Of a DNA stretch of 64,000 nt, positions 3,410-11,874 are shown piece by piece. The translations under genes and the position numbers were made by a program. The stretch comes from an uncultured Clostridia bacterium. Lineage in GTDB: Bacteria > Bacillota > Clostridia > Oscillospirales > Ruminococcaceae. The notes beneath the pieces were generated by a model. That model had not been told where the DNA came from. It saw only the letters and a list, made by a program, of their open reading frames with translations, and ran no database searches. The stretch spans positions 124,001 through 188,000 of the forward strand of contig CAMNXF010000005.1 in assembly GCA_946567425.1 (NCBI GenBank), written 5' to 3'. Positions within the stretch are counted from its first letter, which is position 1; every line of letters begins with the position of its first letter.

Positions 3410-4081
3410 TCACGCCTCGAATTTATATCCTAACCCGCGCAGTGTCACTATATATTTACGATACGGTCCGAGATTGTTGCGGAGCATTTTGATATGCGTG
3501 TCAATAGTGCGATCGTCGCCGAAAAAGTCATAACCCCAGACCTCTTCAAGCAGCTTGTTTCTTGTAAGCGCTATGTTCTTATTGCGCACCAGATAGAACA
3601 AAAGGTCGTACTCCTTGGGCGTGAGGTTCGCTTTTTCACCGTCGATGAATACGTCGCGGGAGGTAAAATTTATTTCCAGGCCCTCGAACTTCTCCACCTC
3701 GGACGAGACAGAAGCTGAAGCGGTGTTGCGCTTTACGATAGCGTTAATGCGCGCCATTACTTCCTTTGGCGAAAAGGGCTTTACAACATAATCGTCGATA
3801 CCCAACTCGAATCCGAACAGCTTGTCGTACTCCTCCCCTCTTGCAGAAAGCATAAGCATTGGAGTCTGCTTTACCTTGCGGATCTCCTTGCATGCCGAGT
3901 ACCCATCCAGCCGCGGCATCATCACGTCCATTATGATTATATCATAATCCTTGTTCTTTGCCATTTCAATAGCCTGCATACCGTCGCAAGCCTCGTCGAC
4001 CTCATGCCCCTCAAATTCGGCATACTCCTTGAGAACCTCGCGGATATTGTCCTCATCGTCAACTACAAGAATTTTATACAC
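3410..4081 (-). CDS. OmpR/PhoB-family response regulator
   Basis: DNA-binding response regulator, 223 aa, partner of the adjacent sensor kinase. The N-terminal receiver domain (1-115) has the acidic pocket DDE (8-10), the phospho-acceptor Asp52 in MDVMMP, and Lys101 in VVKPF. The C-terminal winged helix (about 130-223) has the family signature LTPKEYDLLFYLVRN and ends in the usual RGLGYKFEA. The start is a GTG at 4081 preceded by GGAGGGG six bases upstream; no ATG fits better. It is the first gene of a two-gene operon. The 180 bp upstream contain a TATAAT on the minus strand near 4220 without a convincing -35 box, so the promoter is uncertain. Confidence 0.94.
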   Translation of the reverse strand: MYKILVVDDEDNIREVLKEYAEFEGHEVDEACDGMQAIEMAKNKDYDIIIMDVMMPRLDGYSACKEIRKVKQTPMLMLSARGEEYDKLFGFELGIDDYVVKPFSPKEVMARINAIVKRNTASASVSSEVEKFEGLEINFTSRDVFIDGEKANLTPKEYDLLFYLVRNKNIALTRNKLLEEVWGYDFFGDDRTIDTHIKMLRNNLGPYRKYIVTLRGLGYKFEA

Positions 4082-4264
4082 GTCTACCCCTCCAATAATT
4101 TATAAATACAATTATTTAAAAAATTGGCGTTCTTTTCATATCCGGAATACGAGAAGAACGCCTAACACCACAGTGAGGAAATTATGAACATTGCTTGCCG
4201 GATCTTCTCCGACAACCTTATTATAATATACAAATATGACGAAAGCGTGAAAAGGCGCTGAATG

Positions 4265-5335
4265 TTATGTAATAACGTCGAAGAAGTCAACGATCTCCTG
4301 CATCTTCACCTCAAGCAGATCGGGGATACCCGTGTCATAACGGTCAGCATTATCACACTCGAACGTAAACTCTCCGTCATCGGAAACGGTAACGGTCGGT
4401 ATCAGCACTCCTATATTCGCCCGATCTTCGGAGATGTTTTCGATATATTCCCCGCCCGCCTGTTCGGCAAAGTGCTTGATTATTTTCAAGCCGAAGCCGA
4501 GACGGAAAAAACCGGAGTTAAAGCCATCACCCGTGTTTTCGTCGCACAGAATGGTCTCGTTAGACACTTTGAGGAACACATATTTCCTGTCGTTCTTTTC
4601 AAGTGCAGTAAGCGATATTATCGGAACGAAGTCTTTCGGCGAGTACACGAGAGCGTTATGGATAAGGTTCACCAGCGCGTTGAACGCATACCGCTTATCC
4701 GCACTGATATACACTTTGTCAAGATCATAAATAAAGTCAATACATCTTTCGCACTTTGACAGAATGGTATTGCACCGCTCAACTATATCCTTTACCATTG
4801 AAACCACGTTCACAGGCTGAAAATTCGGCGCTTTGGTTAGCATGGTGTTGTACTCAAAGGCATTGTTTATCGCCGAGCTGAGGCACGAAATTATCAGATA
4901 ATACTCTTTCCATATTGCGGAATATACTGCGGCGTTATTATCAATTGCGTCCCTGAACGTCCTCGTCAGACTGCGCAGCCGCGACACCCCTTGCATTGTT
5001 GAAAACAGAAATTTCTCGCCCTTTCCAAAGAAATCCGTCTTTTCTGCCATTTCCTGTAAATCGCCGGAATCAAACATCTCGCACTTGATAAGATTGTCCT
5101 CGATCTGTTCAAATCTTCCGCAATATGAAACGCCGTTCAGCATTAGCATAATATTTACAGCGCCCGTTATCGGTATCTCTATATCTTTTTGCATATACGG
5201 TTTCAGCGAGTTTCCCTCAATAAATACCAACGGCTTGTTAGAATAAACACATTCCAATCTACGGTTCAGAAAAATCACCAAGGTAGAATAGTGTTTGTAA
5301 CGTTCTTTGATCTGCTCTCTGCGCAGGACATCCAA
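4265..5335 (-). CDS. GHKL-ATPase protein, histidine-kinase-like without a clear H-box
   Basis: Cytoplasmic 356-aa protein. The C-terminal part (about 213-315) is a GHKL ATP-binding domain, with N-box NLIHNALVYS (223-232) and G2-like box GFGLKIIKHF (281-290). The G1 position reads VSNET instead of DNGxG. The helical region before it (about 112-165), where a kinase would have its phospho-acceptor, has no SHELRTP-type motif. The N-terminal 100 residues look like a small PAS-like sensor fold, but this is a guess. It lies 14 bp after pepF in the tyrA-membrane protein-pepF gene string. It could be a divergent kinase, a phosphotransferase-type scaffold or an anti-sigma-like ATPase. The specific function is unknown. 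Confidence 0.6.
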   Translation of the reverse strand: MDVLRREQIKERYKHYSTLVIFLNRRLECVYSNKPLVFIEGNSLKPYMQKDIEIPITGAVNIMLMLNGVSYCGRFEQIEDNLIKCEMFDSGDLQEMAEKTDFFGKGEKFLFSTMQGVSRLRSLTRTFRDAIDNNAAVYSAIWKEYYLIISCLSSAINNAFEYNTMLTKAPNFQPVNVVSMVKDIVERCNTILSKCERCIDFIYDLDKVYISADKRYAFNALVNLIHNALVYSPKDFVPIISLTALEKNDRKYVFLKVSNETILCDENTGDGFNSGFFRLGFGLKIIKHFAEQAGGEYIENISEDRANIGVLIPTVTVSDDGEFTFECDNADRYDTGIPDLLEVKMQEIVDFFDVIT

Positions 5336-10119: not shown

Positions 10120-10498
10120 TATATTTTAAAGATTTTTTCATCTATTGAATAAATTTCTCCAATACTGCGATAAGCTCCCGCCAATCGTGAATATGCAAAT
10201 AATCGAAACCCACCTTAATGCTGTCGTTTTATCCACTGTATGGATTTATATCGCCGCGGGTCTCGCCCTCGTACAGTACAGGAGAAATTCCCACACCGTA
10301 AGCACCCTCGATATCGGCGGTAATGCTGTCGCCGCAGTACCATACCTTGTCTGCCGCAAGCCCTGCTTTATTTAGCGCTATATCAAACAGCACACGATTT
10401 GGCTTGCGGTACATATAGTCGCTTGACGTGATAACGAATTCAAATTTATTATTCAACAAAAGGCGGTCAAAACGCTCCGTCAGCGCCTCGCCCGACCA

Positions 10499-10506
10499 AC
10501 CAATAT
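10499..10506. repeat. Target-site duplication, left copy
   Basis: ACCAATAT directly outside the left terminal repeat of the cassette. The right copy at 11478-11485 reads ACCAAGAT, 7 of 8 identical. Confidence 0.7.
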
Positions 10507-10570
10507 CTCCCTTTTACCTTTTGTGTTGCTGAAAGCTGTTTTTTGAAGTGCTCCGTCAAAATAGCCAAAC

Positions 10571-10597
10571 GGCAGTTACCCAATGCAGGTAACTGCC
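10571..10597 (-). terminator. Terminator hairpin inside the cassette
   Basis: GGCAGTTACC / GGTAACTGCC, a perfect 10-bp stem with a 7-nt loop, 20 bp after the hydrolase stop. It is followed on the minus strand by GTTTGGCTATTTTG. A second small hairpin (GATAAAT / ATTTATC, 10599-10616) abuts the stop codon. Confidence 0.7.
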
Positions 10598-10616
10598 CGA
10601 TAAATGAGGATTTATC

Positions 10617-11354
10617 TCAGCATATGACCTTCAAAATTTCATGTGCATACTCATTCGGATATTCATTCATCATTTGCCCATGCCCCATTTTGCTGAATAC
10701 TTGGATTTGCATATTCGGAAGATATAATTTTAATTTTTTTGCGGTCTTAGCCGGATAATGCTCATGTTCTCCATACCAGAAAGCAATCTCGCCTCTAAAA
10801 TCCTCTATTGTATTTTTTATGCCGTATGTATATACATCTTTGCATTCTTTTTTGACTGTAGCAAGTGTCGTTCCTTTGTAGAATGTTTCTACGATTCTCC
10901 CGTTCCCTTTGCCCATTACAGCTTCAATCATAAATGCAGGAATATGCTTCCCATTACAAATCCGCTTTACTGCCCAACTAAAAATGGTTGTATATATTGG
11001 TGTTAGAACACCCATTTTTTCACAAACTGCAGCGTCCAATATTACATGATCGAGTTTTATAAGATTTCTGCTTATCAGTTCGACCGCAATGGTTCCGCCA
11101 AGAGAAAATCCCAATAAAGCATCTAATTTCCCTGAATGATTTTGCAATACATATTCCTCGATCTGTTCACAGGTCGTCTCGATACTCACAAATGATGCTG
11201 AATTGTCGTAATGTCCATCTAACTCGCACAAAATAATATGATATTGCTCTAAATAAGGTATCACCTTATCGAAACATGTATGCACAGTAGTAGCCATTCC
11301 AGGCAGCATCATGATTGTTTTTTCCAATTTAGTATTATAATCTACAAACCTCAT
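10617..11354 (-). CDS. Alpha/beta-hydrolase, cassette cargo
   Basis: Predicted soluble alpha/beta-fold hydrolase of 245 aa. The oxyanion segment reads MLPGMATTVHTCF, the nucleophile elbow is GFSLGG (Ser), and the catalytic His is in KMGHGQMM near the C-terminus. The acid is probably the Asp of a late loop (YGEHEHYPAKTAKK region) or VILDAAV. The substrate is unknown. The ATG at 11354 follows GGTGAAGAG; a TTG five codons earlier is possible. It is the only gene of the TIR-bounded cassette and has its own promoter and terminator. It looks intact although the host gene is dead, which suggests selection on the cargo or a recent arrival. Confidence 0.85.
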   Translation of the reverse strand: MRFVDYNTKLEKTIMMLPGMATTVHTCFDKVIPYLEQYHIILCELDGHYDNSASFVSIETTCEQIEEYVLQNHSGKLDALLGFSLGGTIAVELISRNLIKLDHVILDAAVCEKMGVLTPIYTTIFSWAVKRICNGKHIPAFMIEAVMGKGNGRIVETFYKGTTLATVKKECKDVYTYGIKNTIEDFRGEIAFWYGEHEHYPAKTAKKLKLYLPNMQIQVFSKMGHGQMMNEYPNEYAHEILKVIC

Positions 11355-11390
11355 TTGCTCTTCACCCAAAACTAAAATTTGTTATTTTAA

Positions 11391-11419
11391 ATTATATCAC
11401 AGCCAATTCTGCGCTTCAA
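11391..11419 (-). promoter_or_regulatory. Predicted promoter inside the cassette
   Basis: Minus strand: -35 TTGAAG (11414-11419), 17-bp spacer ending in TGA, -10 TATAAT (11391-11396). It lies within the cassette, so the cargo gene brings its own expression signals. Confidence 0.7.
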
Positions 11420-11477
11420 TCTGAAATTCGTAAAATTGCCGACGTCTAAACTTAACAACACCTAAGGTAAAAGGGAG

Positions 11478-11485
11478 ACCAAGAT
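11478..11485. repeat. Target-site duplication, right copy
   Basis: ACCAAGAT directly outside the right terminal repeat. It differs from the left copy (ACCAATAT) at one position, consistent with age or imperfect duplication. Confidence 0.7.
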
Positions 11486-11874
11486 TGCTGATAGCCGCAG
11501 TACGTATGTTGTTTTCGTTAAGGTGATCCAGCATTTTTTCAGTTTAAGGCATTACCGCTCCCTTTGCAGCGGCTGTCCAGAACACGGTCTCGCGTTCAAT
11601 CAGGGTAAGGGAAAAACCGATATTCAGCAGACTGTCAATTATCTTATGCCCCACTCTCGCGGAAATATTGCAGTTGTGTGTTTTTCGGATCTCCTCGATC
11701 CTCCCGAAAACCTCGGAGCACACTTTTGCGTATTCCTCAACGGTAACGCCGTTCGGATTTTTCGCTATGTGCGCGAAAAGCGCCCTGTTGCCTCGCTCGG
11801 AATTCCAATCCAGTTCGTACAGCAGGGTGTGTCCGTAATCGAAAATTATCATCTCCTGCTTGTTCATAGCTGTC

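Follow-up and report, generated by a model that had tools for sequence, protein, structure and literature searches.

The stretch of DNA analysed here, 64,000 nucleotides long and referred to below as the window, contains a 971-bp cassette (10507..11477) with its gene on the minus strand, its promoter side at 11477 and its hairpin side at 10507. The cassette is bounded by terminal inverted repeats, CTCCCTTTTACCTTTTGTGTTG on the hairpin (T) side (10507..10528, plus strand) and CTCCCTTTTACCTTAGGTGTTG on the promoter (P) side (11456..11477, minus strand), which match at 20 of 22 positions, or at 21 of 24 over a longer stretch; matching ends are present in relatives for both sides. Comparison of the flanks reveals an 8-bp target duplication with one mismatch (7/8 identical), its left copy being ACCAATAT (10499..10506) and its right copy ACCAAGAT (11478..11485). 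The 22-bp repeats with 20 matches and the imperfect duplication had both been proposed in the original prediction, and both are confirmed.

The cassette interrupts a HAD-type gene, likewise on the minus strand. The N-terminal part of this gene (11486..11867) carries an in-frame stop at 11544–11546 and by itself yields no Pfam and no NCBIfam match. The C-terminal part (10226..10498) matches Pfam HAD_2 and Hydrolase_like as well as several NCBIfam HAD models, most of them below curated cut-offs. Deletion of the cassette together with one 8-bp copy produces a single HAD frame across the junction, in agreement with the earlier claim that removal restores the host frame; the rejoined frame nevertheless keeps the stop at 11544–11546 and ends at 10229–10231, perhaps the natural end of the gene. 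The window copy probably entered the HAD gene some time ago; since then the HAD gene and one duplication copy would have altered, with the hydrolase frame still open. An Rfam scan of 10400–11600 returned no match.

The interior of the cassette is occupied by one open reading frame (10617..11369, minus strand; 250 aa from a TTG codon, or 245 aa from the probable ATG at 11354) encoding an alpha/beta hydrolase (Pfam Abhydrolase_1, E 8.6e-7; closest solved structure by sequence 4rpc, E 4.7e-18). The ORF and Pfam scans uphold the view that the 971 bp hold a single alpha/beta-hydrolase gene and no transposase. The protein contains the motifs GFSLGG and GHGQ, which we take to be the serine and the histidine motif, respectively. 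A relative, 43% identical, is the cargo of a cassette in another genome (L031 in G020); the two genes are 58, 70 and 33% identical at the three codon positions, a pattern consistent with purifying selection.

The leader of the window cassette contains the promoter TTGAAG-17-TATAAT (11391..11419, minus strand). The consensus promoter claimed earlier is thus present, and the family described below has kept it at the same place, but taken alone it does not rise above chance (one match in this region against a shuffle mean of 4.0). The hairpin in the tail (10571..10597, minus strand) is real (z −3.4 for 86 nt folded) and covaries in relatives; its role as a terminator, also part of the original prediction, is likely and no more, because a terminator scan does not call the hairpin at 10571–10597. 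Two motifs, AAATTTTAGTTT on the leader side (11369..11380, minus strand) and AAATGAGGATTT on the tail side (10602..10613, plus strand), match the family's inner motif AAAYYGGAATTT at 9/12 each and are weak in the window copy.

A search for the terminal repeats beyond the locus, suggested in the original prediction, returned other copies. At the DNA level, the window genome and 60 relatives matched the ends at three further places which, read out, have the same ends with different genes between them; no second copy of the complete insert was found in this set, and one genome of it (G016) gave a short promoter-like match. An exact end pattern matched the window element alone in the window genome and 36 others, and degenerate patterns and profiles were therefore used; the outer ends of the family read NTCCCTTTT...GTTGCTG. 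Within the genus, the profile R1, which describes the hairpin-side end, matched 8 of 43 genomes with E values of at most 0.1; the G009 match was the weakest of these and is not part of the catalogue. The promoter-side profile (R3), built from 21 elements, detected P ends at E 0.05 or better (weakest 0.037) in all 32 genomes preselected for an end match, some of which match solely at the already known copy. The highest counts of P-end matches were 19, reached in two genomes, and 18 in one more; the window genome has 6. In a phylum-wide sample, P ends were found in 3/398 genomes, a lower bound because filters were strict and just 10 candidates were scored per genome. The family is patchy, yet dense where present.

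The end pattern was matched 114 times in 15 genomes, against 14 matches for the reversed pattern. Across the GTDB collection (84,980 species), the degenerate pattern matched 87 stretches, many of them titled Oscillospiraceae, Oscillibacter, Dysosmobacter, Lawsonibacter, Lachnospiraceae or Clostridia, and several of these come from caecum or rumen-type samples; the remaining stretches, in unrelated phyla, are presumably chance. The catalogue of complete elements in Clostridia, assembled from end profiles and the end pattern, comprises 70 rows. Its rows were assembled by joining P and T profile matches that face each other, duplications not being a criterion, and include some redundancy (L158 and L032 twice each, L194/L197 and L190/L181), through overlaps or one insertion seen in two species. 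The family is large, resides in Clostridia, and many of its members come from animal guts. The dispersed family of gene-sized cassettes proposed earlier does exist, with shared ends and no transposase, and is larger and odder than guessed.

Target duplications mark these elements as probable products of transposition. Among the 69 catalogue rows with full flanks, 37 have a duplication at 8/8, eight at 7/8 and six at 6/8, and the other 18, at 4/8 or less, have none that is recognisable; at three control offsets the flanks never exceed 6/8. Flank identity is exactly 8 bp wide (9 bp in one case), and target sequences differ among cassettes. Once redundancy is removed, the duplication is perfect in 35/65 elements with flanks; when a one-base shift of an end is allowed, 42/65 have a perfect one, compared with 0/65 for swapped flanks. 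The 21 profile-building elements had been chosen partly for their duplications, hence a separate count outside that set, where duplication is perfect in 22/44 and the three offsets never exceed 5/8. Insertion of a cassette gives an exactly 8-bp target duplication. One inverted-repeat pair in one contig might be chance or an assembly artefact at this locus, but the same ends recur with duplications in many separate assemblies, which refutes this explanation.

Tandem cassettes share one duplication between neighbours (L174, with AAAGAAAA three times; L075/L176; L158/L177), as would be expected if new copies landed next to existing ones. In L032 (1500–1662), a single HIT-protein cassette is accompanied by two successive hairpin-side ends separated by 86 bp, of which the outer one alone fits the duplication ATTTATAT.

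Each element consists of a leader (~100 nt) with the promoter, one ORF, and a tail (~105 nt) with a covarying hairpin; leader and tail together are called the shell. Shell statistics refer to 61 elements longer than 250 bp; six rows were omitted as redundant or diverged, and three more as near-empty. A promoter score of 9/12 or better is reached by 43/61 leaders, compared with 10% of letter shuffles, and 18/61 fall below it; within the 43, the −35 box lies at nt 59 in 29 and the spacer measures 17 bp in 35. Mean folding energy of the 61 tails is −19.3 against −12.0 for shuffles, and 24 of them fold below the first percentile of shuffles. Covariation, assessed over 40 of the 61 tails, supports the hairpin, double changes preserving pairing at 8/9 consensus pairs. 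Next to the ORF, ~97 nt inward of either outer end, lies the inner inverted motif AAAYYGGAATTT; it occurs at 10/12 or more in 25/61 leaders, 32/61 tails and ~1% of shuffles, a test made after the fact because the motif had first been recognised in the sequences tested. The near-empty shells measure 161, 194 and 213 bp, and their deletion points differ. By eye, a putative direct-repeat motif is also seen further out in both ends.

The cargo is very diverse. ORFs of 55 aa or more number 64, a few of them doubtful (L185, L137), and fall into 56 blastp clusters. ORFs of at least 75 aa number 52 once redundant and doubtful ones are dropped, and the Pfam scan covered all of them except L075; with an E value of 0.001 as the limit, 36/51 match a family and 15/51 match none. 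Cargo families include five GNAT acetyltransferases, four alpha/beta hydrolases (one weak), three SUKH/SMI1 proteins, one Imm5-like protein, three HTH proteins and two P-loop kinases (one weak), along with methyltransferase, VOC, HIT, tautomerase, nitrilase-like, metallo-beta-lactamase-fold, Rce1-like, TraX, flavodoxin-ferredoxin, ApbA and several DUF proteins. Neither a transposase family nor an integrase was detected among the 51 scanned proteins, 15 of which match no family at all. The hydrolase, singled out earlier as a noteworthy sole cargo, has no special standing among the dozens of cargo types in the family.

Integrons are the well-known traders of one-gene cassettes, and the present units recall their cassettes in being compact single ORFs, very diverse, often of unknown function and followed by a 3′ hairpin. 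Integron cassettes are not known to have inverted ends, a target duplication or a promoter, and integrons are rarely reported from Clostridia. The idea that the units are integron-type gene cassettes placed at secondary sites could draw on the single ORF with its 3′ hairpin, the diverse cargo and the tandem copies. It is very improbable in view of the two inverted ends, the exact 8-bp duplications at differing targets and the promoter in most units (43/61); the present units are dispersed, unlike integron cassettes, and bring their own promoters.

Comparison of copies shows the cargo to be interchangeable between shells. Among the 1830 pairs that 61 elements can form, 34 have leader and tail both at 80% identity or more, and their cargoes are unrelated in 33 and share a 30-residue match in one; a small number of subgroups supplies all these pairs, which cannot be counted as independent. 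The clearest pair, L076 and L060, comes from two genomes: the leaders are 100% and the tails 98% identical over 95 nt, the cargo of L076 is a GNAT protein and that of L060 a DUF6881 protein, and identity breaks off within the inner motif and, in the tail, at TTCCAGTTTAT. The reciprocal arrangement is seen in L076 and L233, which carry the same GNAT gene (ORF DNA 86% identical, third positions 76%) in shells that are 63–64% identical, with homology running from the leader motif to the stop codon. Another pair with shared cargo, L094 and L172, does not show a swap: identity at third positions (59%) does not exceed that of the shells (63 and 73%), and plain divergence explains the pair.

Mosaic-looking copies number one among 22 testable. 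This copy, L084, has a tail 97% and a leader 77% identical to those of L098, and its leader is 96% like that of L185, which by eye has the same cargo and has lost its outer tail; L084 is situated at a contig end and has no duplication. The discordance is consistent with recombination between copies. By eye, L070 (perfect duplication CTTTTTCT) and L026 carry similar P-loop kinase-like genes in different shells.

These comparisons bear on the question of how an ORF enters a shell. We can envisage two layers, in which the unit would transpose by its outer ends while ORFs would be exchanged at AAAYYGGAATTT by a recombinase of their own, turning the element into an integron-like carrier with one slot. 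The inner motif is enriched over shuffles and lies at equal distance from both ends, near-identical shells with unrelated cargo lose identity just there, and the cargo spectrum resembles that of integron cassettes. However, the motif was derived from the very sequences in which the post hoc shuffle test counted it, it may represent relics of one ancestral element or serve a 5′/3′ UTR function, and ordinary recombination through the 100-nt shells suffices for exchange; moreover, the deletion points of the near-empty shells do not coincide, and the window copy has the motif at 9/12 on both sides. We regard this two-layer arrangement as unlikely. The broader proposal of gene trading in Clostridia, with shells moved in trans by a DDE transposase and the ORF slot refilled precisely at the inner motif, by which one stock of shells would draw on a large gene pool in the manner of integrons, is doubtful as well.

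The mobilising enzyme was sought among transposases of the cassette-bearing genomes, where DDE_Tnp_IS1595 is present in 2/15, Transposase_mut in 5/10 and DDE_Tnp_1 in 6/10. None of 47 transposase loci of these three families (nine small Transposase_mut fragments left out) is bounded by cassette ends. None of the five IS1595-type loci carries the cassette ends, and the one read base by base has a different terminus; the genomes being drafts, a parent of this type may lie elsewhere. The full insertion sequence with the same ends and a transposase that the original prediction proposed to look for did not emerge from the search by these three families and by an end pattern, which covered genomes with up to 19 copies. 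As to the proposal of a mobile insertion cassette moved in trans, the inverted ends, the duplication and the lack of a transposase stand, and for the movement itself we infer from the duplications that it probably takes place in trans.

Mobile insertion cassettes (MICs) are defined by inverted repeats, a target duplication and no transposase (PMC3913671), and the present elements are MICs by this definition, with no mobilising insertion sequence found of the kind that serves MIC231. As in MIC231 of Bacillus cereus and in mic-qnrD, there are inverted ends, a duplication, cargo in place of the transposase and proposed movement in trans. The title of a work cited by PMC3913671 calls the IS231-MIC231 elements modular. 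Our family differs from MIC231 in that its parent insertion sequence was not found, and from the MICs described in the sources consulted in having a standard promoter and hairpin tail in the shell, a different ORF in nearly every copy and up to 19 copies per genome. Its 8-bp duplication also departs from the 10–12 bp of the IS231 group, as tabulated in PMC2266710. Like MITEs, the cassettes are short and non-autonomous, with inverted ends and a duplication, and near-empty shells of 161–213 bp occur among them; unlike MITEs, most copies carry a gene with its own promoter. No description of the family was found in the literature, the search covering open PMC papers.

The elements could also be ordinary MICs of one insertion sequence whose transposase ORF was replaced repeatedly by other genes. 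A shell with promoter and tail would suit the outer parts of such a sequence, and the single-ORF layout and the fixed duplication length fit as well, but no insertion sequence with the cassette ends appeared when three transposase families and an end pattern were searched; we give this explanation a little less than an even chance. Most probably, and with considerable confidence on our part, the insert belongs to a variant of the mobile insertion cassette that is non-autonomous, is mobilised in trans and can exchange its cargo. This reading is carried by the pair L076/L060 and by the held-out duplications.

We propose that the non-autonomous cassette is organised as a P end (a 25-bp end, a promoter with a 17-bp spacer and a leader to ~nt 100), an ORF with its own ribosome-binding site, and a T end of ~105 nt that combines the covarying hairpin with the other end. 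A transposase encoded elsewhere would recognise both ends and insert the unit with an exactly 8-bp duplication. Since the shell supplies promoter and tail, expression would be expected of whatever ORF lies between them. The likeliest route of cargo exchange would be recombination between copies through the shared leader and tail, and new ORFs may join at the inner boundary by a further step. Such interchangeable shells suggest gene trading that resembles integrons and uses transposon-type ends; if true, common gut bacteria would have, independently of integrons, another means of packaging single genes and spreading them. Many small genes of unknown function, among them those for immunity-like proteins, acetyltransferases and hydrolases, would be marked as mobile, and since there are copies that differ in their gene but share a shell, the way in which single ORFs are captured can be addressed by comparison.

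Several candidates were set aside. An IS5-like element of the window genome (L302 in G000) was considered as the parent because an end-like 24-mer lies beside its transposase; alignment of copies places the border 41 bp inside the inner edge of the 24-mer, which thus lies 41–64 bp outside the insertion sequence. This element of ~0.9 kb is present in several mostly broken copies (L302, L315, L318 and L320; G000 C5:118050–118501, C19, C6 and C16), one of them ~6 kb before the window start. The 1636-bp L137, examined as a possible autonomous copy, contains no long ORF (longest 151 aa) and has a diverged shell together with L057 and L072. These three form a subfamily with similar outer ends and other inner sequence, 1.1–1.6 kb long when complete, and their ORFs are lipoprotein-like or membrane-protein-like. 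End-like matches in G063 (L042, L050 and L053) belong to another repeat without cassette structure; they lie near contig ends and present TTCCCTTTTATAATGCGGGTTGATGAG, then a leader, then different genes.

Viral contigs gave five pattern matches and no shells by profile, and phages gave no match to a query consisting of one near-empty shell. The plasmid search returned one element, L269 (OY725877.1, 20314–28419; element at 3999–4676). It resides on a mobilizable plasmid of Subdoligranulum variabile, ~0.9 kb from a predicted aadE gene, and its cargo is a 147-aa protein without Pfam match.
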